Assembly: GCA_937872225.1 (NCBI GenBank)
Contig: CALMRZ010000087.1
Coordinates: 1-56,535, forward strand
Length of the DNA: 56,535 nt
Direction of reading: 5' to 3'
From: an uncultured Spirochaetota bacterium
GTDB taxonomy: Bacteria; Spirochaetota; UBA4802; UBA5550
The stretch's first letter is position 1; each line of letters starts with the position of its first letter. The position numbers and the translations under genes are program-made. This document shows, one piece after another, positions 38,001 to 56,535 of this stretch. A model generated the notes under the pieces. That model had not been told where the DNA came from and made no database searches. It saw only the letters and a list, made by a program, of their open reading frames with translations.

Positions 38001-39587
38001 TCGCCGCCGCCGCACCATGACATCTATTCCATCGAGGACCTGGCCCAGCTCATCTTTGACCTGAAAAACGCCAACCCGAAGGCGCGCATCAGCGTGAAGC
38101 TCGTTTCCGAAAGCGGCGTCGGCACCGTTGCCGCGGGCGTCGCCAAGGCCCATGCCGACAACATCCTCATCAGCGGGTTCGAAGGCGGCACGGGCGCCAG
38201 CCCCATCAGCTCCATCAGGCACGCCGGGCTCCCCTGGGAGATCGGCCTCGCCGAGACGCACCAGACCCTGGTCATGAACGACCTGCGGGGCCGCGTGCGG
38301 CTCCAGACCGACGGCCAGATCAAGACCGGGCGCGAGATCGTGATCGCCGCCCTGCTGGGCGCCGAGGAGTTCGGCTTCGGGACCGCGACCCTCATCGTGC
38401 TGGGCTGCGTGATGATGCGCAAGTGCCACCAGAACACCTGCCCGGTGGGCGTCGCCACCCAGGACCCGGGGTTGCGGAAGAAATTCACCGGCAGGCCGGA
38501 GCACCTCATCAATTACTTTACCTTCATGGCCCGCGAGGTGCGGGAGATCATGGCGGAGTTGGGCATCAGGAAGTTCGACGACCTGGTGGGCAGGAGGGAC
38601 CTCCTCACCGTGAGGACCATTGACCACTGGAAGGCGAAAACCGTCGATCCCTCCCCGCTCCTCTATATGCCGAAAGAAGCGAAGGAATTCGCCACGCACT
38701 GCGTCCAGGACCAGATCCACAAGATCCATGACGTGATGGACCACACGCTGATCGAGCGCTCCAGCCCGGCCCTCGAACGCTACGGCCGCATGCCGGTGCA
38801 TATCTCGCTTCCCATCAACAACACGAACCGGTCGACCGGCACCATGCTTTCCTACGAAGTTTCAAAGCGCTTCGGCGAAGAGGGGCTCCCGGACGACACC
38901 ATATCCTGTCTGTTCCGCGGCAACGCCGGCCAGAGCTTCGGCGCCTTCCTGGCAAAGGGGATCACCTTCCGACTGGAGGGAGACGCCAACGACTACCTGG
39001 GAAAGGGCCTTTCCGGCGGGCATATCATCGTGGTGCCCCCGTCAGGCAGCACCTTCCTGCCCGAGGAAAACATCATTATAGGCAACACGGTGCTCTACGG
39101 CGCCACCTCGGGTGAGGCGTATATCCGCGGCATAGCCGGCGAGCGCTTTGCCGTTCGCAACAGCGGCGCCATTGCCGTGGTGGAAGGGACCGGCGACCAC
39201 TGCGCCGAATACATGACCGGCGGACGCATCATCGTCCTTGGGAAAGTGGGCCGCAATTTCGCCGCCGGCATGAGCGGCGGCATCGCCTACGTCCTCGACC
39301 GGGACGGCGTGTTTGAGTATTTCTGCAACAAGGGAATGGTCAGCCTCTCCGCGGTGCGCGAATACGAAGACCAGGAATTCATAATAGAGCACCTTGAAAA
39401 GCATGTCAGGTTCACCGGGAGCACCGTCGCCCGGGACATCCTGCACAGCTGGTATGAATTTTTGCCTAAATTCATAAAAGTACTGCCGCTTGAATACAAG
39501 CGCGCCATGGACGAAATGAGGCTGTCCATGATTGATGAAAAGCTCGCCCGGATACGGGAAGAAGAACAACTGGGAGTGACCTACTGA
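35043..39587 (+). CDS. gltB: glutamate synthase large subunit
   Basis: Large (alpha) subunit of NADPH-type GOGAT, 1514 residues, which takes the amide of glutamine, channels ammonia and makes glutamate from 2-oxoglutarate. The N-terminal nucleophile is Cys 21 (EHDSCGIGF), exposed after removal of a 20-residue leader. The glutaminase domain spans about 21-430 (HRGAESADNKTGDGAG, HSRFSTNTFPSW), then the central domain, the FMN-binding synthase domain (about 840-1210; GEGGEDPERF, KPGEGGQLPG, SPPPHHDIYSIEDL) with the 3Fe-4S motif C-x5-C-x4-C in CVMMRKCHQNTC, and the C-terminal beta-helix domain (GNTVLYGATSGEAYIRGIAGERFAVRNSG). GAGGAG precedes the ATG by 10 bases. gltD follows after one base. Confidence 0.98.
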   Translation: MTYTAPEHQGLYSSAYEHDSCGIGFVANIKGKASHDIIERGLEVLERMEHRGAESADNKTGDGAGLLIQIPDALYRKELPSLPEQGLYGTGIVFLPRDRGEAEQCVGELERIIGEEGMKTVGWREVAVDNSVLGNISRASEPAMKQLFVAGGNVRERAELERRLYIIRKSAENAIRNSSLRQRGLFYIPSLSSRTIVYKGMLMPTQVRHYYRDLSDPLMESAVALVHSRFSTNTFPSWDLAQPFRMLAHNGEINTVKGNRFWMSARESTFASPVFGDEIKKLLPVIEPGKSDSASFDNALEMLYFNGRSLPHALMMLIPESWNEKNPIPEELKYFYEYHSTFMEPWDGPASMVFCDGRFVGGTLDRNGLRPSRYVITRDDLIVMGSEVGVQTFPPESIVYKGRLMPGKLLLVDMEQGRIIPDEEIKRSIYTRKPYQLWVQLNRVNLEDLDVKGDVPVAMEEDALHEMHLLHGYSREDIEDIITTMAETGQEPTGSMGTDTPLAVFSDKPQRLFNYFKQCFAQVTNPPIDPIREELVMTLTSYIGSQKNLLDETPEHCRMIKFKSPLFTNRNLETIRHNENPAFRSITLPMTFPVKTAPGSLKRALDRLCMSVEEKIDQGYSYIILSDRGADRDNAPIPSLLACAGVHHYLIRTKKRTRIGLIIETAEAREVMHFALLFGYGASAVNPYGAFATINDLVKKEEIKNLRYMKAEDNYIKAVNKGLLKVLSKMGTSTLRSYRGSQIFEAVGLGKELIETYFTGTDSRIGGIGTAEVEREVLAQHETAFLKAPPLLESQGMYQYRRHGERHAWNPETIHLLQWATRSGDYAMYKKFSDIVNSLNRRPHFIRGLFDFKEQTPIPIDEVENEKNILKRLTTGAMSFGSISKEAHETIAAAMNAIRGRSNSGEGGEDPERFTAQPDGTSTRSAIKQIASGRFGVTSNYLANADELQIKMAQGAKPGEGGQLPGFKVDKIIAKTRHSTPGVTLISPPPHHDIYSIEDLAQLIFDLKNANPKARISVKLVSESGVGTVAAGVAKAHADNILISGFEGGTGASPISSIRHAGLPWEIGLAETHQTLVMNDLRGRVRLQTDGQIKTGREIVIAALLGAEEFGFGTATLIVLGCVMMRKCHQNTCPVGVATQDPGLRKKFTGRPEHLINYFTFMAREVREIMAELGIRKFDDLVGRRDLLTVRTIDHWKAKTVDPSPLLYMPKEAKEFATHCVQDQIHKIHDVMDHTLIERSSPALERYGRMPVHISLPINNTNRSTGTMLSYEVSKRFGEEGLPDDTISCLFRGNAGQSFGAFLAKGITFRLEGDANDYLGKGLSGGHIIVVPPSGSTFLPEENIIIGNTVLYGATSGEAYIRGIAGERFAVRNSGAIAVVEGTGDHCAEYMTGGRIIVLGKVGRNFAAGMSGGIAYVLDRDGVFEYFCNKGMVSLSAVREYEDQEFIIEHLEKHVRFTGSTVARDILHSWYEFLPKFIKVLPLEYKRAMDEMRLSMIDEKLARIREEEQLGVTY

Positions 39588-39588
39588 C

Positions 39589-41013
39589 ATGGGAGATCCG
39601 AAAGGTTTCATGAATATACGGCGCCAGGAAGCCGGCTACCGGCCGGTGGAAGAGCGCGTCAACGACTACAGCGAGGTGGAAAAACACCTCCCCGACGACG
39701 CGCGGCGCCTCCAGGCTTCGCGCTGCATGGACTGCGGCGTCCCCTTCTGCCACTGGGCCTGCCCGGTGTCCAACATCATGCCCGAGTGGCAGGACCGGGT
39801 GTTCCGGGGAGACTGGAAGGGCGCCTATGACATCCTCCAGGAAACCAACAATTTTCCCGAATTCACCGGCAGGGTCTGCCCCGCCCTGTGCGAGGCGTCC
39901 TGCGTGCTTGCCATCGGCGACGAAGCGGTCACCATCCGGCAGAACGAGCTGGCCGTCATAGAAAAGGCCTATTCCCTGGGGCTGGTGAAGGCGTCGCCGC
40001 CGAAAAGCCGCACCGGAAAAAAAGTGGGGGTCATCGGCGGCGGTCCGGCGGGGCTCGCCTGCGCCGACCTGTTGAACAGGGCAGGCCACAACGTGACCAT
40101 CTTCGAGTCCGCCGACGGCGTGGGCGGATACCTCCGCTACGGCATCCCCGACTTCAAGCTGAACAAGTACATCATCGACCGCCGCGTGAACATCATGGTC
40201 GAGGAAGGGATCGCGATTAAGACCGGCGTCACCGTCGGCATGGATGTCCCGGTTTCGTCGATCCGCAAGGATTTCGATGCCCTGTGCATCGCCATCGGGT
40301 CACGGGAGGCCCGCGACCTTCCCATCCCCGGGCGGGAACTGGCGGGCATCCACCAGGCCCTGGACTACCTGGTGCAGCAGAACCGCGTCGTTAAAGGAGA
40401 CACGATCCCCGACGATGAGATAATCCGCGCCTATGATAAAAACGTGGTGGTCATCGGCGGGGGCGACACCGGGTCGGACTGCGTGGGCACGGCGAACCGC
40501 CAGGGCGCCCGGAGCATCACCCAGCTTGAGCTGCTGCCGAAGCCGCCCGAACACCGCACCGACAGGGAGCCCTGGCCCCTCTGGCCCAAGGTGCTCAAGG
40601 TATCGAGTTCCCACGAGGAGGGGTGCGCCCGGATGTGGAACGTGTCCACCAGGCGGTTCATCGGCGACCGGGGCCGCGTCACCCAGATCGTCGCGTGCGC
40701 CGTGGAGTGGACCACGGGACCCGACGGCAAGCCGGTCATGACCGAGGTCCCCGGCTCGGAATTCACCCTCAACGCCGAGCTGGTACTCCTGGCCATGGGT
40801 TTCATTCACCCGGTCCATTCCGGCCTGGTGAATGAACTGGGCCTGGAATTGGACGGCCGGGGAAACATTAAAATAGACGAAAACGCCATGACCAGCGTCG
40901 ACGGCGTGTTCTCCGCCGGAGATTCCTCCCGGGGCGCTTCCTTGGTGGTTCACGCCATCCAGGACGGAAGGATGGCGGCGGCGGCAATTGACCGCTACCT
41001 ATCACGATCGTAA
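39589..41013 (+). CDS. gltD: glutamate synthase small subunit
   Basis: Beta subunit of GOGAT, 474 residues, which passes electrons from NADPH through FAD to the large subunit. The N-terminal double Fe-S motif reads CMDCGVPFCHWACPVSN and CPALCEASC; the FAD site is VGVIGGGPAGLACADLL (about 143-160), and the NADPH site is VVVIGGGDTGSDCVGTANRQGA (about 285). The end has GVFSAGDSSRGASLVVHAIQDG, as in the family. It begins one base after the gltB stop, with GGGAG inside gltB as the ribosome site, so the two subunits are made in balance. asnB follows 40 bases later. Confidence 0.98.
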   Translation: MGDPKGFMNIRRQEAGYRPVEERVNDYSEVEKHLPDDARRLQASRCMDCGVPFCHWACPVSNIMPEWQDRVFRGDWKGAYDILQETNNFPEFTGRVCPALCEASCVLAIGDEAVTIRQNELAVIEKAYSLGLVKASPPKSRTGKKVGVIGGGPAGLACADLLNRAGHNVTIFESADGVGGYLRYGIPDFKLNKYIIDRRVNIMVEEGIAIKTGVTVGMDVPVSSIRKDFDALCIAIGSREARDLPIPGRELAGIHQALDYLVQQNRVVKGDTIPDDEIIRAYDKNVVVIGGGDTGSDCVGTANRQGARSITQLELLPKPPEHRTDREPWPLWPKVLKVSSSHEEGCARMWNVSTRRFIGDRGRVTQIVACAVEWTTGPDGKPVMTEVPGSEFTLNAELVLLAMGFIHPVHSGLVNELGLELDGRGNIKIDENAMTSVDGVFSAGDSSRGASLVVHAIQDGRMAAAAIDRYLSRS

Positions 41014-41053
41014 TTACAGATAAACCCAGAGTGAAACGACCGGGGATGCAACC

Positions 41054-42997
41054 ATGTGCGGAATAGCCGGCATCTATGCCATAAAAACAGAGCGTCCCGT
41101 GGAACGTGCCTTACTGTCAAGGATGGCCGAGACCCTGAACCACCGGGGACCGGATGAACACGGGTTCCATGCCAGGGGCGGCGTCGGACTGGCCCACACG
41201 CGCCTCAGCATCATTGACCTGAGCGGCGGTTCCCAGCCGATTTACAACGAAGACCGAAGCCTCTGCGTGGTCTTCAACGGAGAAATATTCAATTACATCG
41301 AGCTGCGGGAGGTCCTTGAAAAAAAGGGCCACAGGTTCTACACCCGCAGCGACACGGAAGTGATTGTCCACATGTACGAGGAGTACGGCAGGGAATGCTT
41401 CAACCAATTCAACGGCCAGTTTGCCATAGCCATCTGGGACGACCGGAACAGGGAACTGGTCCTGGCCCGCGACCGCGTCGGCGTCAGGCCCCTGTTTTAT
41501 TCCCTGCTGCCCGACGGGACCCTGGTGTTCGCCTCGGAGATGAAGGCCATTTTTTGCTATCCCGGCTTCGAACTGGAGATAGATCCGGAGGGGATAAACC
41601 AGATCTTTACCATCTGGGTCAACATCCCTCCCCGAACGGCATTCAAAGGCGTCAACGAACTCGCCCCGGGGCATATCATGACCGCCTCCCCTAAGGGGAT
41701 CGCCGTGAACAGGTTCTGGCGCATGCGGTTCCCCGACGAGCACGACTACGAGGACCGGCCCCTGTCCCATTACACGTCCCGCATCCAGGAACTCCTGTAT
41801 GACGCGGTGACCCTGCGCCTCCGGGCCGATGTGCCCGTCGCCGCCTACCTGAGCGGCGGTCTTGATTCATCGGTCATAACATCGCTGGTGAAAAAACACC
41901 ACGTCAATGACCTGATAACCTTCTCGGTCGCCTTCAGCGACAGGAACTTCGATGAACGCGGGTACCAGAACCAGATGGTCGACCTGCTGAAGACGGACCA
42001 TCGCGTCATAGAGGCAACCTACGAGTCCATCGGCGAGGCCTTTTCCGATGTGGTCTGGTTCTCGGAAAAGCCGATGATCCGCACCGCGCCGGCCCCCCTC
42101 TTCATCCTTGCGGGCCTTGTACGAAGGAACGGCATCAAGGTGGTGCTTACCGGGGAAGGCGCCGATGAATTTTTCGGGGGATACGACATTTTCAAGGAGG
42201 ACAAGATCCGCCGCTTCTGGGCCAGGGTCCCGGAATCAAAACTCCGGCCCCGTCTCTTTTCGGTGCTCTATCCCTTCATTTCGCGGGACCCCCGTTTCGA
42301 GCGCTTCTGGCAGATGTTTTTCCGGAAGGACCTGGCCGACACGGAAAACAGCTGCTATTCCCAGCTGGTGCGCTGGCACAACACCTCCCGGATCAAGCGG
42401 TTCTTCACCGATGACTACCAGGAGCAGTTCAGCGAAGAGAGAATCTTCAGCGATCTCGAGAGCTATATTGATCCGGACATAAAGCGCTGGCATCCCCTCT
42501 GCAGGGCCCAGTACCTCGAGGCCACGCTCTTCATGTCGGGATACCTTCTCTCGTCTCAGGGAGACCGCATGATGATGGGCAATTCCATCGAGGGCCGCTT
42601 CCCCTTCCTGGACCATAACGTCATTGAATTCGCCGCCACGATACCGCCGGTCTACAAGATATACGGCCTGAACGAAAAGTTCGCCCTGAAAAAGGCCTTC
42701 GAGGATGTCCTGCCCGGTTCGGTGCTGCATCGCGTCAAGCAGCCGTACCGGGCCCCCATCAGCCAGTGCTTTGCCGGCGATAATTTTTCCGCCTCGATGC
42801 TCGACACCGCCATGGTTCGGAGGTACGGGTACTTCAATCCGGACAGCGTGGGGCGGCTGATGAACAAGTTCAGGAACCAGGATTGGAAGAACATAAGCGA
42901 GCGGGACGACATGACCATGGTGGGAATGGTCTCCCTGCAGCTTCTTCACCACCACTTCCTGGACCGGGGCGCCGATGACACCGCGGTCAGCCCATGA
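41054..42997 (+). CDS. asnB: asparagine synthase (glutamine-hydrolysing)
   Basis: AsnB of 647 residues: aspartate plus ATP plus glutamine to asparagine. The nucleophile is Cys 2 (MCGIAGIY), with NHRGPDEHG, HTRLSIIDLSGG and VFNGEIFNY in the class II glutaminase domain (1-210). The synthetase domain (about 230-600) has the PP-loop motif YLSGGLDSSV near 267 and VLTGEGADEFFGGY. It is longer than E. coli AsnB (554), closer to the common Bacillus-type length. It follows gltD on the same strand and completes a glutamine-nitrogen group. Related PP-loop proteins in antibiotic or glycan pathways exist, but all asparagine-forming motifs are present. Confidence 0.93.
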   Translation: MCGIAGIYAIKTERPVERALLSRMAETLNHRGPDEHGFHARGGVGLAHTRLSIIDLSGGSQPIYNEDRSLCVVFNGEIFNYIELREVLEKKGHRFYTRSDTEVIVHMYEEYGRECFNQFNGQFAIAIWDDRNRELVLARDRVGVRPLFYSLLPDGTLVFASEMKAIFCYPGFELEIDPEGINQIFTIWVNIPPRTAFKGVNELAPGHIMTASPKGIAVNRFWRMRFPDEHDYEDRPLSHYTSRIQELLYDAVTLRLRADVPVAAYLSGGLDSSVITSLVKKHHVNDLITFSVAFSDRNFDERGYQNQMVDLLKTDHRVIEATYESIGEAFSDVVWFSEKPMIRTAPAPLFILAGLVRRNGIKVVLTGEGADEFFGGYDIFKEDKIRRFWARVPESKLRPRLFSVLYPFISRDPRFERFWQMFFRKDLADTENSCYSQLVRWHNTSRIKRFFTDDYQEQFSEERIFSDLESYIDPDIKRWHPLCRAQYLEATLFMSGYLLSSQGDRMMMGNSIEGRFPFLDHNVIEFAATIPPVYKIYGLNEKFALKKAFEDVLPGSVLHRVKQPYRAPISQCFAGDNFSASMLDTAMVRRYGYFNPDSVGRLMNKFRNQDWKNISERDDMTMVGMVSLQLLHHHFLDRGADDTAVSP

Positions 42998-46091: not shown

Positions 46092-48272
46092 ATGAATATT
46101 TCCAACAACCTTCTGACGACCCTTGAAATAGCGCTGGACACCATCTTCAAGGCCTCGGGAACAGACATCCGCCTCCACGGCCTAGATCTGATACCCGACC
46201 AGCCGGTGCTCTACGTGGTGAACCATTTCACCAGGATGGAAACCTTCCTGATGCCCTATATCATAAAAAAGAACGTCAGGAAATATCCCATCTCCCTGGC
46301 GGACAGCTCGTTTTTCAGCGGCAAGATGGGCGAGTTCATGGACAGGGTCGGCGCCATATCCACGGCCGACAGGAACCGCAACGCCATCCTCATCGGTGCG
46401 CTCCTCACCGACAGCCACCCGGTCATCATCTTCCCCGAAGGGCAGATGATCAAGGACAAGAAGATCATCGAAAAGGGAAAGTTCATGGTCTACAACACCG
46501 GGATCAGGAGGCCGCCCCATACGGGGGCGGCCCGCATCGCCCTTCTCTCCCAGTTCATGCGCGAGAAGATACGCCGCTGCCGTGAAAAGAACGACGCGGA
46601 AAAGCTCGCGCGGTACGCCGCCGTGTACGGCTTCGACCCGGCGGACATCGACACAATAACCGCGAAAGAGACCTTCATAGTCCCGGTGAACCTGACCTAC
46701 TACCCGGTCAGGGCGCGGGACAACGCCATCAACAAGCTGGTGCGCAGGTTCGTGAAGGACATGTCGGCCCGCTTCCGGGAGGAGCTGGAGGTCGAGGGGA
46801 CCATGGTCATGGAGGGCGTCGACATCGACATCAATTTCGGCAGGCCGATATCCGCGCGGGAGTACCTTCGTTCGGACACCCAGATCGGGGAGATGCTGGC
46901 CGACGACGCATGCTACCTGTCGGCAGAGGAGGCGAAAAAGCTGTCCGCCCTCGCCCCCCTGGACCTGAAGATGATGCATGAGTACATGAACTCGATCTAC
47001 GGCATGACCACCGTGAACCATGACCACATCTTCTCATACATCCTCACCCGGCACAGGAAAAGCTGGATCAGCGAAGACGATCTGAAAAACCGCGCCTTCC
47101 TGGCCATCGACATCATGCGCCGGAGCGGCATCACCAATTACCACACCGCCCTCCGGAAGAAGCAGTTCTACCTCCTGACAGACGACTACCATGAAAAATA
47201 CGCGAACTTCGTGGAGTCCGCCGCGGCCGACGGCCTCATCACCGTGAGGGACGGCATCATCCACAAGAACCGCGGGCGGTTCACCAGGGTGTACGACTTT
47301 CACACTATCAGGAAGGACAACATCATCGAAGTGCTCAGGAACGAGATCGAGCCCCTCACGGCCCTCACCGCGGCCCTTGACCGGATCTGCATCACGCCGG
47401 CATGGTGGATCAGGCGCGCCATCGTTAAGCGTTTCATCGATCTGGACCGCCGGCTCTTCGAGGAGGACTACCGGAAATTCTACATCAAGGGGGAGACCAA
47501 GCCGGAGGAAATCGGCCGGCCCTTCTTCCTGAAGCGTCTCTTCGGCAGGAGGGGGATCATCCTGGTCCACGGCTACATGGCTGCCCCGGAGGAAATCCGG
47601 CCCCTCGCCGATTACCTGCATAAAAAGGGATACAACGTGTACGGCCCGCGGCTCCGCGGCCACGGAACGGCGCCCGAGGACCTGGCGTCGCGGAACTGGG
47701 AAAAATGGTACGACTCCGTGGGCCGGGCCTACATCATCATGAAAAACTGCATGAAGACCATCGCCATCGGCGGCTTCTCGACCGGCGCCGGCATCGCCCT
47801 CCTCCAGGCGGCGAACAAGCCGGGCAGGTTCCGCGGCGTCATATCCATCAACGCGCCCCTCAAGCTGCAGAACATCTCGTCGCGCCTGTCGTCGGCCGTG
47901 GTCATGTGGAACAATTTCCTCGCCAGGATGAAAATCAGCAAGGGGAAGATGGACTTCGTGACCAACACGCCTGAAAATCCCCACATCAACTACTTCCGCA
48001 ACCCCGTGGCAGGGGTCAGCGAGCTGGGGAAGCTGATGAAGGTCGTGGAAGAGCGTCTCCCCCTCGTCAGGGACCCGGCGCTGATCATGCAGGGCTCCGA
48101 CGACCCGGTGGTCAACCCGGTGAGCGGCCTGGAGATATTCGACCGTCTCGGCACGGAGCAGAAGCAGCTCATCAGGATTTACGCCAGGCACCACGGCATC
48201 ATCCGCGGAAGGGAATTCGAAGAGGTGAAGACACGGTCGCTCGAATTCCTGAAAAAGGTCTTTTCCCGCTAG
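46092..48272 (+). CDS. fusion of PlsC-like acyltransferase and alpha/beta hydrolase
   Basis: A 726-residue protein with two enzyme domains. Residues about 20-240 match 1-acylglycerol-phosphate acyltransferases: NHFTRME near 43 (the usual NHx4D with Glu for Asp) and IIFPEGQM near 114 (FPEG motif). Residues about 280-470 are an unassigned linker. From about 485 there is a lipase/esterase-like alpha/beta hydrolase: ILVHGYMA, PRLRGHGTAP, nucleophile Ser 563 in GGFSTGAG, acid Asp at 670 or 671 in GSDDPVV, and His 700 or 701 in ARHHGII. One chain could thus transfer and remove acyl groups on the same lipid. GAGGAGAAAGGGG precedes the ATG. Substrates unknown; it follows a Nudix gene. Confidence 0.82.
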   Translation: MNISNNLLTTLEIALDTIFKASGTDIRLHGLDLIPDQPVLYVVNHFTRMETFLMPYIIKKNVRKYPISLADSSFFSGKMGEFMDRVGAISTADRNRNAILIGALLTDSHPVIIFPEGQMIKDKKIIEKGKFMVYNTGIRRPPHTGAARIALLSQFMREKIRRCREKNDAEKLARYAAVYGFDPADIDTITAKETFIVPVNLTYYPVRARDNAINKLVRRFVKDMSARFREELEVEGTMVMEGVDIDINFGRPISAREYLRSDTQIGEMLADDACYLSAEEAKKLSALAPLDLKMMHEYMNSIYGMTTVNHDHIFSYILTRHRKSWISEDDLKNRAFLAIDIMRRSGITNYHTALRKKQFYLLTDDYHEKYANFVESAAADGLITVRDGIIHKNRGRFTRVYDFHTIRKDNIIEVLRNEIEPLTALTAALDRICITPAWWIRRAIVKRFIDLDRRLFEEDYRKFYIKGETKPEEIGRPFFLKRLFGRRGIILVHGYMAAPEEIRPLADYLHKKGYNVYGPRLRGHGTAPEDLASRNWEKWYDSVGRAYIIMKNCMKTIAIGGFSTGAGIALLQAANKPGRFRGVISINAPLKLQNISSRLSSAVVMWNNFLARMKISKGKMDFVTNTPENPHINYFRNPVAGVSELGKLMKVVEERLPLVRDPALIMQGSDDPVVNPVSGLEIFDRLGTEQKQLIRIYARHHGIIRGREFEEVKTRSLEFLKKVFSR

Positions 48273-48293: not shown

Positions 48294-50060
48294 CTACTGC
48301 ATCTCCACGCCGATAAGGATGATATCGTCGACCAGGGGCGCCCCTTTCCTGAATTTCGTGACCGCGTCGATGACACTGTCCAGCTTCCGGCTGATGGTGC
48401 TGCCCGCCGGGTCCCTGAACAGGTCAAGAAAGGTTTTATCGCTGGTATCAAGCATCTCCCGCTCCTCGTTGATGGTGTCGGGGATGCCGTCCGTGTAGAG
48501 AAAAATGCGGTCCCCCGGCCGCAGCTCAACCGAGGTCTCTCCGAAGGTCCGGTTTTCCTGCCATCCCAGGAGGTTCCCGCTGGCCCTGATGAACTCGACG
48601 GAATCCGTGTCGCGGCGGTACAGAATCGGATAGGGATGGCCCCCGCGGGAGAAGGTGAAGGTAACCCCGTCCTTGATTCGCTTGAACAGGCCGTAGAGGG
48701 CCGTCATGTAATAATCGGGCATGCCGCGGTACACTTCGTAGTTGATCATTTCAAGGTACCGGGAGGGGCTCATGCCGCACTTGCGGCAGGCGCGGTTTGA
48801 AACCGTGCGCACGAGGGAGAGAAAGAGCGCCGCCGGAACGCCGTGCCCCGTCACGTCGCCGATGAAAATTCCGAGCCCTCCTTCCTCGAGGGTCGTGAAG
48901 GAAAAATAATCCCCCCCGACCGCCTCGAGGGGCAGGTAGCGGTAATCGATGGCCAGCGGCGGATACAGGGGCACTTCCTTCGGCATGAGGGCCTTCTGTA
49001 TGAGGCGCGCGCTCTCGAGCTCCTTGTTGATCATCTCGTTGCTGGCCCTCAGGCTGTTTTCGCTGATCCTGAGCTCACTTTCAATCTGCTTGCGCTCCAG
49101 GATTTCGCGGATGAGGTGCTTGTTGATCTCCTTGAGCTCCGCGGTCCGCTCCTGCACCATGGCTTCCAGTTTTTCCTGGTGACGGCGAAGCTCGTCCTCC
49201 ATCCGCTTGCGTTCGGTGATCTCGCGCCCGATGCCCTGCACCGCGTAGGGCTTCCGGTTGCGGTAGATCAGGAATGATTTTGTCTCAACGAATATGCAGC
49301 CGCCGTCTTTTTTATACAGTATAAATTCAGTCGGATGTTTCTGGGCCCCGGTTTCCATCAGCTCCTTGAATATCGCTTCCACCGCCGGCATCTGGTCGTC
49401 GCCGAGGATCTCCCGCAGGGTGAGCGAAGAGACTTCCTCCCTGGTATATCCCAGGGCGTTGATCGCGGCACCGTTGGCGTCGATGAAGCGGCCGTCGAAA
49501 TCATGGAGAAAAACCATGTCGAGGGAGCGGTCAAAGAGGGCCCGGTAGCGCTCCTCGCTCTCCTCAAGGGCCATCAGGGCCATCTTGCGCTTCCGGATGT
49601 CCCGGGTGCTTCCCTGGATGCCCACGGGCACGCCCTTCTCATTTAGAATCCATGTGGTCGTGACTTCGACGTCAATCACCGATCCGTCCTTCGCTATTTC
49701 CTGGAGCTCCAGGATCTTCTGCTTGAGCCGCTGGTCCGCCGGCTTCTGCAGCTCCCGGGAAATTTCCTCGGTGATAAGGGGCATATACTCGGGCACGATA
49801 AGCTGCTGCATGGGGGCGCCGATGAGCTCATCAGGCGTGTAGCCGATCATGGCCGTTACGGAGGGACTCATGTAGGTGAAGCGGCCCTCAAGGTCCATCG
49901 CCCAGATGACATCGGAGGAATTTTCCGCCAGGAGCCGGTACAGTTCCTGGCTCTTGTACAGGTCCGAAATGGTCCTCCGGTAGACGTTCTCCGATTCCTC
50001 CAGCTGGGCTATGCGCCGCTGCAGCTCTTCTATTGTGGGACCCTTCGTCTCTCGTTCCAT
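48294..50060 (-). CDS. PAS-PAS-coiled-coil-SpoIIE-type serine phosphatase
   Basis: A 588-residue cytoplasmic signalling protein. Two PAS domains at about 40-165 and 170-290 (each starts LAENSSDVIWAMDLEGRF-like / LFDRSLDMVFLHDFDGRF and ends in IRKRK / ITERKR), a coiled coil about 290-355 (EELRRH..EKLEAMVQERTAELKEINKHL), and a SpoIIE/RsbU PP2C domain to the end (AVGGDYFSF, GIFIGDVTGHGVPAAL, RGGHPYP, LFLYTDG-like IFLYTDGIPD). It would dephosphorylate an anti-sigma-factor antagonist when a PAS ligand or redox signal is sensed; no antagonist or kinase gene is adjacent. A TTG at 50126 would lengthen it; the ATG at 50060 is preferred. It lies 40 bases downstream of the OmpA-PD40 gene, likely co-transcribed. 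Confidence 0.87.
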   Translation of the reverse strand: MERETKGPTIEELQRRIAQLEESENVYRRTISDLYKSQELYRLLAENSSDVIWAMDLEGRFTYMSPSVTAMIGYTPDELIGAPMQQLIVPEYMPLITEEISRELQKPADQRLKQKILELQEIAKDGSVIDVEVTTTWILNEKGVPVGIQGSTRDIRKRKMALMALEESEERYRALFDRSLDMVFLHDFDGRFIDANGAAINALGYTREEVSSLTLREILGDDQMPAVEAIFKELMETGAQKHPTEFILYKKDGGCIFVETKSFLIYRNRKPYAVQGIGREITERKRMEDELRRHQEKLEAMVQERTAELKEINKHLIREILERKQIESELRISENSLRASNEMINKELESARLIQKALMPKEVPLYPPLAIDYRYLPLEAVGGDYFSFTTLEEGGLGIFIGDVTGHGVPAALFLSLVRTVSNRACRKCGMSPSRYLEMINYEVYRGMPDYYMTALYGLFKRIKDGVTFTFSRGGHPYPILYRRDTDSVEFIRASGNLLGWQENRTFGETSVELRPGDRIFLYTDGIPDTINEEREMLDTSDKTFLDLFRDPAGSTISRKLDSVIDAVTKFRKGAPLVDDIILIGVEMQ

Positions 50061-50100
50061 TTCGTGCCAGATCCTCTCAGCCGGCTCCTGCCGGTACGTC

Positions 50101-51603
50101 CTATATGGCCAGGACCTCAATTTCAACGCGGCGGTTCTCTCTTCTTCCAGCTTCTGTTTTATTTGTCGCGATGGGCTTCTTCTTGCCGTATCCCCTGCCG
50201 ACGAGGCGCTCCCTGCCGATTCCCTTGTTTATCAGGTACGTCACGACCGACTGGGCTCGCTGCATCGAGAGCTTGTTGTTGGTCATGTCGGTCCCGATGT
50301 TGTCGGTGTGGCCGCTGATCTCGACCTTCAAGGTGGGGTTCTCCTTCATCAGCCTGATGATGCGGTTCAGTTCATACTTTGACTCTTTTAGAAGCTTGTA
50401 GCTCCTGAATTCGAAATACATGTTGTTGAGGACGATGTTGGCGCCCACCATGATCGGCTCGAGGAGGATGTCCTCGTTGATCTCCTTGTACTGCTGCAGG
50501 CCGCTGAGGTCTATTTTCCTGGAGTAAAAGAGGTAGCCGGGGCTCTTGACCGAAAAGTCGCAGATCTTGCCCTTGTTGAGGATGACGATGTACTTGCCGT
50601 CATCCTTGTTGCTGTAGACGGTGATGGGCCGGTCGTCCTGGTTAATATCGGTGATGGTCAGCTCGGCGAAGAGGGTCTTGTCCGTGTTCCTCTTGTCGCG
50701 GACGGTTCCCTTGACGATGACGACCTTGGTCTGCTGGAGGTTCTCCGGTATCGGCACCGAGAAGATCCTCCGTGCGCTCTCTTCATCCCCCGCATCCTTG
50801 CCGAGGGACTTCGTGTAATACATGATGTCGCCCGATGCGGGTATGGCGATGAGGCTGTCCTCGCCACTGGTATTGATGAAGTTCCCCAGGTTCATCGGTT
50901 TGCCCCACCCGCCATGTTCCGTCTTCTCGACCTTGTACAGGTCGTACCCGCCGTATCCCCCCGGCCGCGTGGAGCTGAAAATAAGTGTCAGGTTGTCCGC
51001 CAGGATTACCGGGCCGAATTCGCACGACTCGGTGTTTATGGGATAGGGCATCTTCTTCGGCTCTTTCCACTGGCCATTGACTTTTTCGGAGTAAAAAATC
51101 CCGAGCTTGTCCTTGCAGGCGGTTTTTTCGGGGCACTCGCGGACGAAATAGAGGGTATTGCCGTCAGGGGAAAGGGAAGCGAACCCTTCGTACCCCGGCG
51201 AGTTGATGGGAGCGCCCATGTTGACCGGAACGGACCAGCCGTCGCCCATCCGCTGTGATATCCAGAGGTCGCAGTTGCCCAGCCCGCCCTTCCGGTCCGA
51301 TGTGAAAATGAGCGAGTTCTGGTCATAGGTGATGAAGCACCCGCCGTCGGCATATTTTGAGTTGATGCTGTCAAGGGCAACCGGCCTGCTCCATTTATCA
51401 AAGACCTTCTGCTTGGCGTAAATTTTGTATTTTCTCGGCTCATCGATATCGGCCTGATATATCATGGTGCGGCCGTCAGCCGAAATGGTCGGACTGTATT
51501 CGGAATATTCATGCTTGGAAAACGCCCTGGTGACCGCTGAAATTACCACCAGGAGAAACACAGCGATCAGCGCCAGTCTGGACAGTGTACGGTACCTTCC
51601 CAT
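50101..51603 (-). CDS. OmpA-family protein with PD40 (TolB-like) beta-propeller
   Basis: A 500-residue envelope protein: signal peptide or anchor (about 8-26), PD40/WD40-like beta-propeller repeats (about 35-300; SPTISADGRTMIYQA, FASLSPDGNTLYFVRE, TLIFSSTRPGGYGGYDLY), a middle region (about 300-375) with a carboxypeptidase-like beta fold, and a C-terminal OmpA peptidoglycan-binding domain (about 395-500; FRSYKLLKESKYELNRI, VEISGHTDNIGTDM, LSMQRAQSVVTYLI, GYGKKKPIATNKTEAGRRENRRVEI). Such proteins link the outer membrane to the cell wall. No lipobox is seen. Upstream bases 51604-51923 hold an interspersed repeat. Confidence 0.9.
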   Translation of the reverse strand: MGRYRTLSRLALIAVFLLVVISAVTRAFSKHEYSEYSPTISADGRTMIYQADIDEPRKYKIYAKQKVFDKWSRPVALDSINSKYADGGCFITYDQNSLIFTSDRKGGLGNCDLWISQRMGDGWSVPVNMGAPINSPGYEGFASLSPDGNTLYFVRECPEKTACKDKLGIFYSEKVNGQWKEPKKMPYPINTESCEFGPVILADNLTLIFSSTRPGGYGGYDLYKVEKTEHGGWGKPMNLGNFINTSGEDSLIAIPASGDIMYYTKSLGKDAGDEESARRIFSVPIPENLQQTKVVIVKGTVRDKRNTDKTLFAELTITDINQDDRPITVYSNKDDGKYIVILNKGKICDFSVKSPGYLFYSRKIDLSGLQQYKEINEDILLEPIMVGANIVLNNMYFEFRSYKLLKESKYELNRIIRLMKENPTLKVEISGHTDNIGTDMTNNKLSMQRAQSVVTYLINKGIGRERLVGRGYGKKKPIATNKTEAGRRENRRVEIEVLAI

Positions 51604-51680
51604 AGTTCAGCCCCTTATCATTATTCTTCTGAAAACATACGGCTATTGGTATATCAAGCAGGCTTGTTGCTCTTCTGGTT

Positions 51681-51795
51681 ATGTCATTACGAACCCCGCC
51701 TGCCGTGGTCACAAATCCTGGAACCAGAATTTGCTGCCGAGATTTCTCCTCGTCCCGGGATATAGGGATTCGTCGAAATGGCAGTCTAACGACAG
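51681..51795. repeat. degenerate interspersed palindromic repeat element
   Basis: This stretch reads GTCATTACGAACCCCGCC, then ATTTGCTGCCGAGATTTCTC and GGGATTCGTCGAAATGGCAG, close to a family of roughly 110-base interspersed elements widespread in bacterial genomes, whose ends (GTCATT-CGAA... and ...TTCG-GAAATGAC) are imperfect inverted repeats. The copy is degenerate (GTCATTAC, AATGGCAG). It lies between ompA-PD40 and the MFS gene, which otherwise has no gene in 51604-51923. Identification is from recall of the pattern, not from a search. Confidence 0.5.
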
Positions 51796-51923
51796 ATCCA
51801 GTATACAAGATACAATTAATAATATTTTTAATAGGCGGTAAAATCTCTGTCAAGTAACAAATCGCCGGAGCCGGTCGACATTCCCGAGAAGATCAGAACC
51901 TGACAGGGGCCGTGCCAATACGG

Positions 51924-53096
51924 TCATTTGTGCAGGAAGACGGCCAGCAGGCAAAAGGAGAGCAGGGAGAAAACGGCTGAAAACAGGAAGACCCCCTCCA
52001 TGCCCCATGCCTGGAAGGCGATGCCGGTGAAGACCGGACCCACGGTCTGTCCCAGGCGGAGGACCATCGAGTTCATGGACATGAAGGCGCCGCGGTACTC
52101 CATCGGCGCGCTGCCGGAAAGGCGGGTCTGAATGCTGGGTATGTTCAGGCCGTTGGCAAGACCGTATACCAGCAGGGGGACGGTCATCAGCCACAGGCTG
52201 TCGGCGTACAGCATCATCGCGATGGCGGCCGCGTAGGCGATAAAAGAAGCGACAATGATCGTCTTGGTGGTGAAGCGCCTCGATATCCATCCGAGATTGA
52301 AGGCGCCGATGATCGTCGTGATCGAGGTTGCCGCCAGCATGAGGCCGATGACCGACGGCGGCGCGCTGAATTTTCTGTGCATCAGGAACGGGAAGTATGC
52401 AAGGAGGGCGCCGTAGAGCAGCATGAAGGTCGCCAGGGTCGCCCCGTAGGCCGGCAGCACTTCCCGGTCGGAGGCGGATCGCGCCGCGCCTGCCAAATAC
52501 TCCCGTAGCGGGGGGGACGGTCCCGGCTCGGGATTCTTCAGAGTGAAGAGCACCAGGAACCCCACCGGCAGCGCCAGGGCCGAAAGGAGGAAGGGATAGT
52601 TCCATCCCGGCAGGGCCAGGGCCCCGCCCAGGGCAGGGTAGATCATGGTGCCGACACCCAGCACCGAGGCATTGTACCCGAGGGCTTCGGTCCTCTCGTT
52701 CCCGGAAAACATGTCGCCGATGATGGTCTGGTTCAGACCGCCCAGGGCGGAGGCGCCCACGCCGTTGGCAAACCGGAGGGCAAGGAGGACATGGTAGTCT
52801 TTGGTGAAGGCGCAGGCACAGCCCGCGATGCCGAAGAGGAACAGCGACGGGACGATGATTCTTTTCCTGCCGAAGCGGTCGGCGAGCATCCCCATCACCG
52901 GCGACAGGATGATCCCCGGGCAGGTAAAGATGGTTATGAGCATGACGACCTGCCCTTCCGTAAGATAAAGGTCCTTCGCGATCTGCGGGAGCGCCGGCGC
53001 GATGGAGTTTACGCCTATGACGGAAATGAGCGTTATCCCGAAAACGACCTGGAGATCGCGGCGGAGCACTATATGCCGGTCGGGTTTAATCCGCAC
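51924..53096 (-). CDS. MFS drug/metabolite exporter
   Basis: Inner membrane transporter of 390 residues with about 12 hydrophobic segments. The MFS signature between helices 2 and 3 is GMLADRFGRKRIIV (near 69-82) and the antiporter-type motif is ALRFANGVGASALGGL. It resembles the DHA1 multidrug group. The GTG at 53096 overlaps the end of the upstream methyltransferase-ligase gene by 11 bases, so the two are translationally coupled and likely work together: the transporter could export the product of that enzyme. Substrate unknown. Confidence 0.85.
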   Translation of the reverse strand: MRIKPDRHIVLRRDLQVVFGITLISVIGVNSIAPALPQIAKDLYLTEGQVVMLITIFTCPGIILSPVMGMLADRFGRKRIIVPSLFLFGIAGCACAFTKDYHVLLALRFANGVGASALGGLNQTIIGDMFSGNERTEALGYNASVLGVGTMIYPALGGALALPGWNYPFLLSALALPVGFLVLFTLKNPEPGPSPPLREYLAGAARSASDREVLPAYGATLATFMLLYGALLAYFPFLMHRKFSAPPSVIGLMLAATSITTIIGAFNLGWISRRFTTKTIIVASFIAYAAAIAMMLYADSLWLMTVPLLVYGLANGLNIPSIQTRLSGSAPMEYRGAFMSMNSMVLRLGQTVGPVFTGIAFQAWGMEGVFLFSAVFSLLSFCLLAVFLHK

Positions 53097-55041
53097 AGTG
53101 AACGACTGATCCGCTCATGCTGACCAGGCCGATCCGGTGTTCGGCGGCCTGAAGAATCTCGCCCATCATGTCCGCGTATGACAGGCCGTCAAGCTTGGCC
53201 ATCTTCGCCATGTGGCCGTCCCGGCACCATCCGGGGTTGGGGTTTACCTCGAGAAGCTTCGGCTTGCCCTTGCCGTCCAGGCGCCAGTCGAAGCGGCAGT
53301 AATCGCGGCATTCAAGCCTCTCGAAGAGCTTCAGGCAGCACTCGATGATCAGCTTCCGGTTCTCATCGGAAATGACCGCGGGCACGGTGCGTATGTCCCG
53401 GTACGGCGAATCGGGAACCCATTTCGTTTCGTATCCGCAGATCTTCGGCAGCTCCGGCGGGAGGAGCGAATAGTCCTCTTCGAGGAGCGGGAGCACCCGG
53501 TACGAATCAGGGGGATTGCCGATGATCCCCGCGCTCAGGTCCTTGCCGGTGAGGAACTCCTCCACCAGGATCGGCTTTTCGTAGCCGAGCCGGTCCCGCA
53601 TTTCGGAGATGGCGTTGACCAGCTCCTCGATGCTGTTGCACACGCTCCGCTGGGTGATGCCGAAGCTCGAGTCGCCGAAGTTGGGCTTGCAGATGACCGG
53701 GAAGCCAAAGGGGAGGTCAAAGGCGGTGTCTTCCGGCTTGATAAAGAAGGCCTTGGCCACGGGGATCCCCATCTCCTTGGCGATGCCGCGCACCAGCGAC
53801 TTGTCGTAGCAGTAGGCGATGCACTGCGGGCCCGAGCCGGTATAGCTGATGTCCATCATCTCCAGGAGCGACGGCACATGGAGCTCCTTGCGCGCTTCAT
53901 TGTTGTATCCATCGTCGCAGAGGTTGAAGACAAAATCGATGTTTTTCCTGAGGCGCGACAGATCGTTGATGAGCGAATCATGGCTGCTGATGTAGGTGAA
54001 ATTATAGTCCGGGAGACTCTTCAGGGCGTCCTTCATCTGGTCAACGGCATACCGGTCGCCGGCGCCGCTGCCGGGGGCCGGCCTGACGGGGTCCCGCTTC
54101 ATCGGGTCCCCCAGGACGACCGTCACGTTCTTGATGTCGGTTTTCTTCTGCCGCACCGGCGACCAGTCCTTCTTGACCAGGGCCGTCATGATGATTCGCT
54201 TCTCCGTCATCCCCGGGTCCTGGCCCCGCGGATGGCCCGCGTCGTCATCGCCGTGCAACGCAATGTCGCTGAAGCCGGCGGCGTTCAGGAGTTCCTGCAT
54301 GCTGTCGCTGTTGTACAGCCGCTCGGCGTAGAACTGGTCGGCGATTACCCCCTTCTCCACGTGGGTCACCACCTCCCGCGAGATCAGCCGCTGCTTGTCC
54401 ACCGACAGCGAGCGCTCGCGGCACACGAAATGGTTCTTATCGATCCAGTCCCATGACCGGGGCTGAAAATGCCGGCGCAGATGATCACCGTCGTTCACGT
54501 CGATGAGGAGCCTCCCCCACGGCTTCAGCACCCTGAACACTTCCCGGAGGACGCGCAGGTCGTCATTCACGGTTTCAAAATAACCGAAGCTGTTGCCCAG
54601 TATGAAAATGACGTCAAAGGTATCGGGCCGGTACGGAAGCATGCGGGCCTCGCCCTCGCGGAACTTCACGTTCAGGCAGTCCTTTTTAGCCTGCATTTTC
54701 GCCCTCTGGATCAGGTAACGCGACCGGTCCAGACCCTCGACAAACTTGAAGCCGCGGCGCGCCAGCTCCAGCGAATGTCTCCCCTGCCCGCACGAGAGAT
54801 CAAGAATGCGGTCATCGGGCAGAAGGTTGGCTGTCCGGATAAAAAGGTCCACCTCGCGGACAGTCACGGCGTGGTCCTCGGCGACATCGGCATCTGTTTT
54901 AAGGCGGAGTGCATTGTTGAAGATAGTGCTCCACCACTCGGGATTGACATATTCCTCGAGGTTGGCGACAGGCCCCAGGGACTTCCTGGCGTGAATGCCT
55001 TTCGGTCTTGCCTGCAGTGGTCCGTTAACGGTGGCTTTCAT
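53086..55041 (-). CDS. fusion of SAM methyltransferase and ATP-grasp (D-Ala-D-Ala ligase-like) enzyme
   Basis: A 651-residue bifunctional protein. Residues about 60-290 are a class I SAM methyltransferase: motif I ILDLSCGQGRHSLELA (79-94), then RMLPYRPDTFDVIFILGN and VLREVFRVLKPWGRLLIDV. Residues about 305-640 are an ATP-grasp ligase of the D-Ala-D-Ala ligase type: NIDFVFNLCDDGY, YTGSGPQCIAYCYDKSL, VICKPNFGDSSFGITQ (the ATP loop), VEEFLTGKDLS and LEVNPNPG (metal-binding Glu/Asn). Such ligases join a carboxylate to an amine and are used in small peptide and mycosporine-like pathways. The link to the next-gene MFS exporter suggests a small modified peptide or amino acid product. Not a cell-wall Ddl by size and neighbours. 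AGAGG lies near the ATG. Confidence 0.88.
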   Translation of the reverse strand: MKATVNGPLQARPKGIHARKSLGPVANLEEYVNPEWWSTIFNNALRLKTDADVAEDHAVTVREVDLFIRTANLLPDDRILDLSCGQGRHSLELARRGFKFVEGLDRSRYLIQRAKMQAKKDCLNVKFREGEARMLPYRPDTFDVIFILGNSFGYFETVNDDLRVLREVFRVLKPWGRLLIDVNDGDHLRRHFQPRSWDWIDKNHFVCRERSLSVDKQRLISREVVTHVEKGVIADQFYAERLYNSDSMQELLNAAGFSDIALHGDDDAGHPRGQDPGMTEKRIIMTALVKKDWSPVRQKKTDIKNVTVVLGDPMKRDPVRPAPGSGAGDRYAVDQMKDALKSLPDYNFTYISSHDSLINDLSRLRKNIDFVFNLCDDGYNNEARKELHVPSLLEMMDISYTGSGPQCIAYCYDKSLVRGIAKEMGIPVAKAFFIKPEDTAFDLPFGFPVICKPNFGDSSFGITQRSVCNSIEELVNAISEMRDRLGYEKPILVEEFLTGKDLSAGIIGNPPDSYRVLPLLEEDYSLLPPELPKICGYETKWVPDSPYRDIRTVPAVISDENRKLIIECCLKLFERLECRDYCRFDWRLDGKGKPKLLEVNPNPGWCRDGHMAKMAKLDGLSYADMMGEILQAAEHRIGLVSMSGSVVHCAD

Positions 55042-55537
55042 GGCCTCTGGTTCCCTCCCCGGTCGAATTATTATGTCTCTTCCACAAGCAGCCGATCCGG
55101 CATGCTGCCGTTAATGGAGCGCGTCTTCCGCCCTCCATGGATTGTTCCATGGCGGCGCCTGACAGTGAAACGTCCGTCAGGATGCTGGTTAAACGGTGGA
55201 TGGATGTGCCGCCATGAATTCCGTCGGCATATGGTGAAAGGACAGGGCCGAAACCCCGCGCATCTTCCCGCCTGAACTCTTCGCTTTCCCCGGTCATGGC
55301 GCTTCCCGGCAGAGGCAGGAATAATGTTTATCTGATTCCAATTCTGATTACCTGTATAATCCTTGTGAAAAATAAGAACAGTGAAAAAAGAACCACTGCC
55401 CCAGCTGTGGTAAACGCAGCATCCCTCCACGCATCCCCGACGCCGGGCTCTGCTGGAAGCATCACGCTATCTTGCAAAATAATATACTACATAATGAAAA
55501 AAATTCAATAAAAAAACGACAAAAAGTAAGCCCGCCA
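55042..55537. other. gene-free region upstream of the methyltransferase-ligase gene
   Basis: 496 bases between two minus-strand genes. A minus-strand frame of 90 codons (55297-55025) exists but has random-looking composition and overlaps the next gene start; it is probably not a gene. From about 55320 the sequence becomes A+T-rich. No clear promoter, terminator or repeat is seen. Confidence 0.45.
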
Positions 55538-56404
55538 TCAGAGACCGGCGACCCTGGCGAAATTCTCCCCCAGGATCATCCTCCGGATCCTCTCATCGGG
55601 GAAGAGCCTCTCGATTCTTTTCTTGATGTACGAATAGTCATAGTAGCCGTCTTCAGCCAGGGGGCCGTAGGGACCGTCGGTGCCGAAAAAGCACCGCTCG
55701 GCTCCGAGGTATGCAACGACGTCCTTCATGATCTTCTCTCCGACATAGGCGACCGCGGAGAGATCGACGAAGACCGTGGGCCTTGCACGGATCAGCTTCC
55801 ATGAATCCGAGTAGCAGGGAAAGGCCGCGTGGGCGAGGATCAGCTTAAGCCCGGGGACCCTGTCGACAAGGTCAATGAAGTTTCCATGGTCGCCGAATCC
55901 TAAGTGAATGAGGAGCGGTTTGTCCAGGCGGACCGCTTGTTCCGCCGCGGAGACCAGCTCCGCCGGGGGGTAGCGGTGCCAGAAGGGATGCGCCTTTATG
56001 CCGACGAACCCGGGCGACGTCTTCCATTTTTCAATTTCCCTGACCGGGTCATTCTTTCCGCGCGGGTTCACGAAGATCCACCCGCAGAATGCATCCGGAT
56101 TCTTCCGGGCCAGGGCGAACACGGGCCCGTTGTCAGGGTCGGGGTAAATGGCGTAATTCTTGCCGAGGATAGTTATCCCGTCATCGGTAAAGTGCGCCGA
56201 CAGGATTTTCCCGAGACCCCGCAATGGCCGGCGGGACAACAGCCGCTGCAGCAGCCAGACTGCCGCATGGGGGGTGACCGGGAGAGGATCGTTCATGCAC
56301 GCGATCAGGGCCGCCCTGGCCACTCCGGCATCGGCCATTTTGCGGATGAGCACGTCCGCGGTCATCATCCGTTCATCATAATGGAAATGGCTGTCGATAA
56401 TCAT
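55538..56404 (-). CDS. amidohydrolase-2 family metal-dependent hydrolase
   Basis: Cytoplasmic TIM-barrel hydrolase of 288 residues. The metal-binding HxH motif is in MIIDSHFHYDE at the start; PGFVGIKAHPFW, KPLLIHLGFGD, LKLILAHAAFP and CFFGTDGPYGP supply the other metal residues, the order seen in amidohydrolase-2 proteins (decarboxylases and lactonases). The start at 56404 is chosen because GGAGG lies 6 bases before, and a promoter overlaps any longer start at 56461. Its reaction is unknown. It is separated by 500 bases from the fusion gene and need not be linked to it. Confidence 0.85.
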   Translation of the reverse strand: MIIDSHFHYDERMMTADVLIRKMADAGVARAALIACMNDPLPVTPHAAVWLLQRLLSRRPLRGLGKILSAHFTDDGITILGKNYAIYPDPDNGPVFALARKNPDAFCGWIFVNPRGKNDPVREIEKWKTSPGFVGIKAHPFWHRYPPAELVSAAEQAVRLDKPLLIHLGFGDHGNFIDLVDRVPGLKLILAHAAFPCYSDSWKLIRARPTVFVDLSAVAYVGEKIMKDVVAYLGAERCFFGTDGPYGPLAEDGYYDYSYIKKRIERLFPDERIRRMILGENFARVAGL

Positions 56405-56432
56405 GGGAGCCTCCACCACGGGTTGATGCAAT

Positions 56433-56461
56433 ATCACAGGCAGCTTTTTGCTAAAAGTCAA
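56433..56461 (-). promoter_or_regulatory. sigma-70-type promoter of the amidohydrolase gene
   Basis: Minus-strand TTGACT (56461-56456), 17-base spacer, TGTGAT (56438-56433; four of six). Transcription would start near 56426, about 22 bases before the ATG at 56404; this supports that start over the longer frame. The last 70 bases of the window are A+T-rich and show no gene. Confidence 0.45.
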
Positions 56462-56535
56462 TATGAAAAAATCAACCGTTGCCGATAAAGCGTGAGCAAC
56501 AGCTCATTAACGTGAATTTAAAAAAAATTTATATT

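Follow-up and report, generated by a model that had tools for sequence, protein, structure and literature searches.

What does a single protein carrying both a methyltransferase and a Ddl-like ATP-grasp ligase make, and does the transporter gene that overlaps its coding sequence belong to the same pathway? These questions are raised by a locus in the window, i.e. the whole 56,535-nucleotide stretch of contig CALMRZ010000087.1 from an uncultured Spirochaetota bacterium (genome G000) that was analysed here. A preliminary description had proposed a minimal pathway in which a small molecule is methylated, ligated and exported.

Gene organization of the locus

The fusion gene (53086..55041, minus strand) was delimited by its open reading frame, Pfam matches and alignment and encodes 651 aa from an ATG start. 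A ribosome-binding-like sequence, GGGGAGGG (55053..55060, minus strand), was recognized by sequence reading 11 bases 5′ of this ATG. The preliminary description had placed a methyltransferase and an ATP-grasp domain in one chain, and both Pfam domains do lie in the single 651-residue frame. The N-terminal half (approximately residues 22-295; 54157..54978, minus strand), bounded by Pfam, alignment, model and structure matches, is a class I SAM methyltransferase with Methyltransf_25 matching at residues 79-176 (1.4e-18) and the domain placed by Pfam at 76-181. The C-terminal half is an ATP-grasp domain of the Ddl fold (approximately residues 303-640; 53122..54135, minus strand), bounded by Pfam, structure match and the alignment to DdlB, with Dala_Dala_lig_C matching at residues 422-631 (3.2e-25).

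The MFS transporter gene (51924..53096, minus strand; 390 aa; MFS_1, 7.9e-61) encodes a protein with likeness to drug and siderophore exporters. As described before, it starts inside the end of the fusion gene, with an 11-base overlap (53086..53096, minus strand) when its GTG start is used. Sequence reading gave no clear ribosome-binding site upstream of this GTG, and the next in-frame start, a GTG at 53069, is outside the overlap, so that the overlap depends on the choice of start. The identical GTG start was found in the sister species G004. No Rfam match was obtained within positions 50000-56535.

Two other regions of the window were recorded. At 46092-48272 a 726-aa chain combines an acyltransferase (PF01553) with an alpha/beta hydrolase (PF12146) and is kept across the genus. 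At 35043-42997 the large chain of glutamate synthase is followed by an oxidoreductase resembling the small subunit and then by an amidotransferase of the asparagine synthase type.

Distribution and inheritance of the fusion

Of 392 Spirochaetota genomes, 14 have the full-length fusion, the window's genome counted, and so do 12 of the 392 genomes of the Planctomycetota sample. A contig scan with short peptide patterns added two Planctomycetota genomes, and the family as analysed here therefore has 28 members, 14 from each phylum. The in-depth search covered these two phyla, with a limited number of candidates scored per genome. The recurrence in other genomes that the preliminary description had named as a check is thus established. 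Since the full length is kept in 28 genomes, the fusion is more than a chance event; it is a genuine and tightly conserved family, with 124 positions invariant across the 28 members. The nearest unfused relatives are remote, at 38-41% for methyltransferase-only proteins (G048, G100) and 29-33% for ligase-only proteins.

Pairwise distances of the two halves correlate among the 28 members (r = 0.93), and the mean divergence is equal between them (0.394 and 0.393). In the tree of the 28 fusions, Spirochaetota and Planctomycetota are not separated; well-supported branches require at least two switches between phyla, and the best tree has four. Because the halves diverge in step and the tree mixes the phyla, the data fit a fusion that is inherited whole and has been transferred from phylum to phylum. 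Plasmid records gave 417 matches, each to one half only and none covering 80% of the fusion query, and no relative of the fusion was found in viral contigs. The sole PADLOC match, mads_2, extends across the methyltransferase stretch and is taken as general methyltransferase likeness. No description of the fusion was encountered in the open-licence literature found, a coverage outside which most subscription journals lie.

Several related arrangements were seen during the survey. In G739 of the Planctomycetota sample (C47:28606-29210, locus L090) two broken end pieces, corresponding to profile positions 6-116 and 548-641, abut and contain stop codons, as if a fusion had lost its middle. In two genomes (L047:9580-13518 and L048:6458-10235), an unfused relative of the methyltransferase half (38-41%) is encoded alongside a DUF885 protein and a protein of 459-481 aa without Pfam match, the three genes forming a row. 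A related Ddl-like ATP-grasp ligase is fused to Peptidase_S58 in a 718-aa chain of genome G021 (L022:1327-3483). Head-to-tail pairs of Ddl-like ATP-grasp ligases (G024:C37, G525:C133, G540:C96, G414:C197 and others) occur both among the sampled Planctomycetota genomes and among relatives from the window's order.

The overlapping transporter gene and other neighbours

Export of a methylated conjugate by the overlapping transporter is suggested by the 11-base overlap, which recurs in G004, by the common strand of the two genes, and by the exporter-like character of the MFS protein. The comparison across genomes argues against this pairing. The MFS gene adjoins the fusion at 2 of 28 loci, those of the window and of G004; conservation of this adjacency, on which the export idea had been made to depend, is therefore not observed. 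An ortholog search covered 27 whole genomes, 17 of them with the fusion, and for the remaining 11 fusion genomes the check was confined to the locus of the fusion. MFS orthologs are present in seven genomes (G000, G003, G004, G009, G010, G016 and G018), five of which have no fusion, with identities of 48-73%, and none was found in 15 of the 17 fusion genomes searched whole. Within family f1, the MFS gene occurs in 2 of 5 fusion genomes and in 5 of 8 others (Fisher p = 0.59).

The locus itself gives the clearest view. Its order is fusion, MFS gene and OmpA-type gene in G000 and G004; the equivalent locus of G003 has the MFS and OmpA-type genes and no fusion, and that of G001 has the fusion and the OmpA-type gene and no MFS gene. 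In G002 and G007 the fusion is located at different sites among different genes. As each gene occurs alone at one and the same locus, the two are separable, and the exporter pairing as a general unit is largely refuted by the locus and genome comparisons. In the two sister species that have it there, the MFS gene stands beside the fusion by chance and belongs to no conserved unit. From the pathway first proposed, methylation and ligation stay plausible, while the export step falls away. An overlapping transporter gene can thus mislead, and locus comparison parts the two genes cleanly.

Moreover, all-against-all clustering revealed no neighbouring gene family in more than 3 of the 28 loci. Pfam analysis of 25 fusion neighbours from 21 loci gave no MFS protein; CitMHS transporters were found in two loci and CorA in two, and the rest were unrelated. 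This lack of a shared neighbour among the 25 neighbours and 28 loci is compatible with an enzyme using widely available metabolites; it could also mean a macromolecular substrate. In G659, a HamA-family protein is encoded 110 bases downstream of the fusion (L104:11163-12095), probably by chance.

The methyltransferase half

The N-terminal half combines a Rossmann-like fold (Z 24.5 to 3d2l_C) with SAM motif I, the features of class I SAM-dependent methyltransferases. Modelled alone from 10 of the 17 sequences, it reached a mean pLDDT of 78.5 and a pTM of 0.77. The alignment contains the SAM motif DLSCGQGRH and an invariant GNSFGYF, and D81, C84, G85, G87 and D105 in the region of SAM motif I are invariant in the 28 fusions.

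In the ranking of solved chains, the second relative of known function is GSMT (5h02; 3.4e-13), and MitM, CypM and GNMT stand lower, amid proteins of unknown function; the roles of MitM, GNMT and GSMT are taken in part from entry titles. Arg175 of GNMT, the carboxylate contact, corresponds to Ala or Asn in the fusions, so that a glycine-like carboxylate would not be bound in the manner of GNMT. The best solved relative by sequence is NmbA (PDB 9RI2; 5.6e-29, profile positions 22-252), which PMC12719100 presents as a bacillithiol N-methyltransferase; its target is the cysteinyl amine of bacillithiol. The same text notes its likeness to glycine N-methyltransferases and reports that NmbA methylates neither glycine nor glutathione. 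The similarity network of NmbA in that text used at least 35% identity to CtNmbA, and the fusion, at 26% in the structural alignment, is below this threshold. By structure, NmbA (Z 21.8, 26% identity) is not singled out, with 3D2L and 1WZN ranking higher.

Among the nearest methyltransferases by structure are the RiPP enzymes CypM and CgnL, the former listed as an N-methyltransferase in Table 2 of PMC12719100. The closest kin of this half act on small amines as N-methyltransferases, and its sequence kinship makes N-methylation likely. As a counterpoint, the methyltransferase superfamily is broad and O- and C-methyltransferases (CcbJ, PsmD, TleD) also score well structurally.

The ligase half

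The full AlphaFold2 model, built from 17 aligned fusions, had a mean pLDDT of 78.7 and a pTM of 0.53, too low to place the active sites relative to each other. Its residues 301-641 match Ddl (8evv_A: Z 30.0, 2.8 Å, 300 residues aligned), and the ligase half is accordingly modelled as the whole Ddl fold, including the N-terminal lobe, and not as a fragment.

This fold match (Z about 30) and the Pfam and NCBIfam labels, both of which name the half after Ddl, would be expected of an additional cell-wall D-Ala-D-Ala or D-Ala-D-X ligase. Against this, the fusion scores 116.4 bits with TIGR01205, for which the cut-off is 245.65, whereas a separate true Ddl encoded elsewhere in the window's genome (G000:C23) scores 348.7 bits. 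The surroundings do not point to the cell wall either: as the preliminary description had noted, no cell-wall gene is nearby, and no Mur gene was found, among the 16 Pfam-scanned ORFs of positions 28137-56535, a range that begins after the left 28.1 kb of the window.

The alignment to E. coli DdlB (27% identity overall, weak in the N-terminal part) separates kept from changed positions. Kept are K97, K144, S150, S151 and E180 (K414, K452, S458, S459 and E494 of the fusion) as well as K215, R255, D257, E270 and N272 (K540, R583, D585, E598 and N600). Y216, S281 and L282 are replaced by W541, G609 and H610, and W541 and G609 are invariant in all 28 fusions. The segment with E15 and H63 does not align; given the weak N-terminal alignment, E15 can be called lost with less certainty than applies to the other changes. 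In DdlB, the kept set includes the ATP/Mg positions, and E15, Y216 and S281 contribute to the D-Ala sites. Arg255 of Ddl binds the carboxylate of the free amino acid. Judged by this Ddl chemistry, formation of an acyl phosphate and the carboxylate contact to the second substrate would be kept, and recognition of D-Ala would be changed. Identity with Ddl is rejected on the score below the cut-off, the genome's own true Ddl and the changed D-Ala-contacting positions; the doubt about a Ddl role voiced in the preliminary description was well placed.

Low-molecular-weight thiol pathways in fusion genomes

The kinship with NmbA raises bacillithiol as a candidate substrate. BshA and BshC are both absent from all 14 Spirochaetota fusion genomes and both present in the same 3 of 14 Planctomycetota fusion genomes; BshA was found in 2 of 27 fusion-less Spirochaetota tested. 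As both enzymes are absent in 14 of 14, bacillithiol is implausible as a substrate in Spirochaetota, and a bacillithiol route in which the fusion replaces BshC and NmbA is out for this phylum, BshA being missing too.

According to PMC6282198, no low-molecular-weight thiol has been documented or predicted for Planctomycetes and Spirochaetes. Since BshA occurs in 167 of the 392 genomes of the Planctomycetota sample, this remark no longer holds for Planctomycetota overall. Among the 12 fusion genomes of that sample BshA occurs in 3 (Fisher p = 0.25). A split into a main clade (0/7, p = 0.02) and a divergent clade (3/5) was made post hoc and is uncorrected for kinship, and for this reason no anti-correlation between BshA and the fusion is claimed. 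Glu_cys_ligase was found in none of 46 genomes, including the 28 with the fusion, and GCS2 in 3 of the 28 fusion genomes and 2 of the 18 without the fusion. Absence of the glutathione pathway is therefore not specific to fusion genomes, as most fusion-less relatives lack its genes too.

Proposed function and alternative explanations

On balance, we regard the fusion as probably a self-sufficient synthetase that would join a carboxylate to an amine, probably of amino acids, and N-methylate it, all within a one-gene module. In this scheme, one small substrate would have its carboxylate converted to an acyl phosphate by the ligase half, which would join it to the amine group of another substrate that itself bears a carboxylate and is most likely an amino acid. 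N-methylation by the methyltransferase half would take place on an amine of either a substrate or the product. Both activities would reside in one polypeptide without dedicated partners, and the module would move between lineages. Amide ligation, N-methylation and amino-acid-like substrates are what we infer here. With both active sites apparently intact, the fusions would define a compact and transferable family of bifunctional enzymes.

The alternatives differ in how the halves are used and whether other genes take part. ATP-grasp ligases also act on peptides and proteins. Like RimK or graspetide enzymes, the ligase half might work on a peptide or protein, at its C terminus or on its side chains, with the methyltransferase capping the product. 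This is rather unlikely: the half has the Ddl fold and keeps the Arg255 position, in Ddl the contact to the carboxylate of a free amino acid, and no neighbour is conserved among the 28 loci. In its favour are such roles of ATP-grasp ligases, as in graspetides (PMC8939145), and the RiPP enzymes CypM and CgnL among the structural neighbours of the methyltransferase half.

It is improbable that the fusion is a one-gene synthase for an unrecognized low-molecular-weight thiol that contains cysteine and is N-methylated, or for a comparable N-methyl dipeptide cofactor; the pathway survey permits this reading and does not favour it. In such a synthase, cysteine would serve the ligase half as the activated or the accepting substrate, and its amine would be methylated by the NmbA-like half. 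If the product were such a thiol or N-methyl dipeptide, it would bear on a redox or protective small molecule of Spirochaetota and Planctomycetota. On the locus comparison, a two-gene pathway with the MFS protein as exporter of the product is quite improbable, and an extra cell-wall ligase is scarcely to be expected. MysD resembles Ddl, and a mycosporine-type pathway could be imagined in which the methyltransferase is MysB-like and the ligase fused to it MysD-like. According to PMC11983340 and PMC9918943, MysD attaches amino acids as an ATP-grasp ligase, and clusters of this type include an O-methyltransferase. In the 25 Pfam-scanned neighbours of the fusion, by contrast, no cyclase or second ligase was recognized, and this origin is highly improbable.

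Comparison with known systems

NmbA is the closest solved relative of the methyltransferase half by sequence; the fusion differs in having this domain joined to a ligase and, in the 14 Spirochaetota genomes, in occurring where BshA and BshC are both absent. The half has an LGNSF motif in common with GSMT and a beta cap in common with GNMT and GSMT (Z about 21). With the Ddl/VanA family (PF07478), the ligase half shares the whole fold, the ATP/Mg positions and Arg255, at about 20-26% identity; it differs in the attached methyltransferase, in the replaced E15/H63 segment, and in the changes of Y216 to W, S281 to G and L282 to H. N-acetylglutaminylglutamine amide synthetase is a GNAT/ATP-grasp fusion that makes a capped dipeptide and is encoded with an amidotransferase and a peptidase. 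It is an analogue that works alike, with a group-transfer domain on an ATP-grasp ligase; that enzyme transfers an acetyl group, whereas the fusion would transfer a methyl group.
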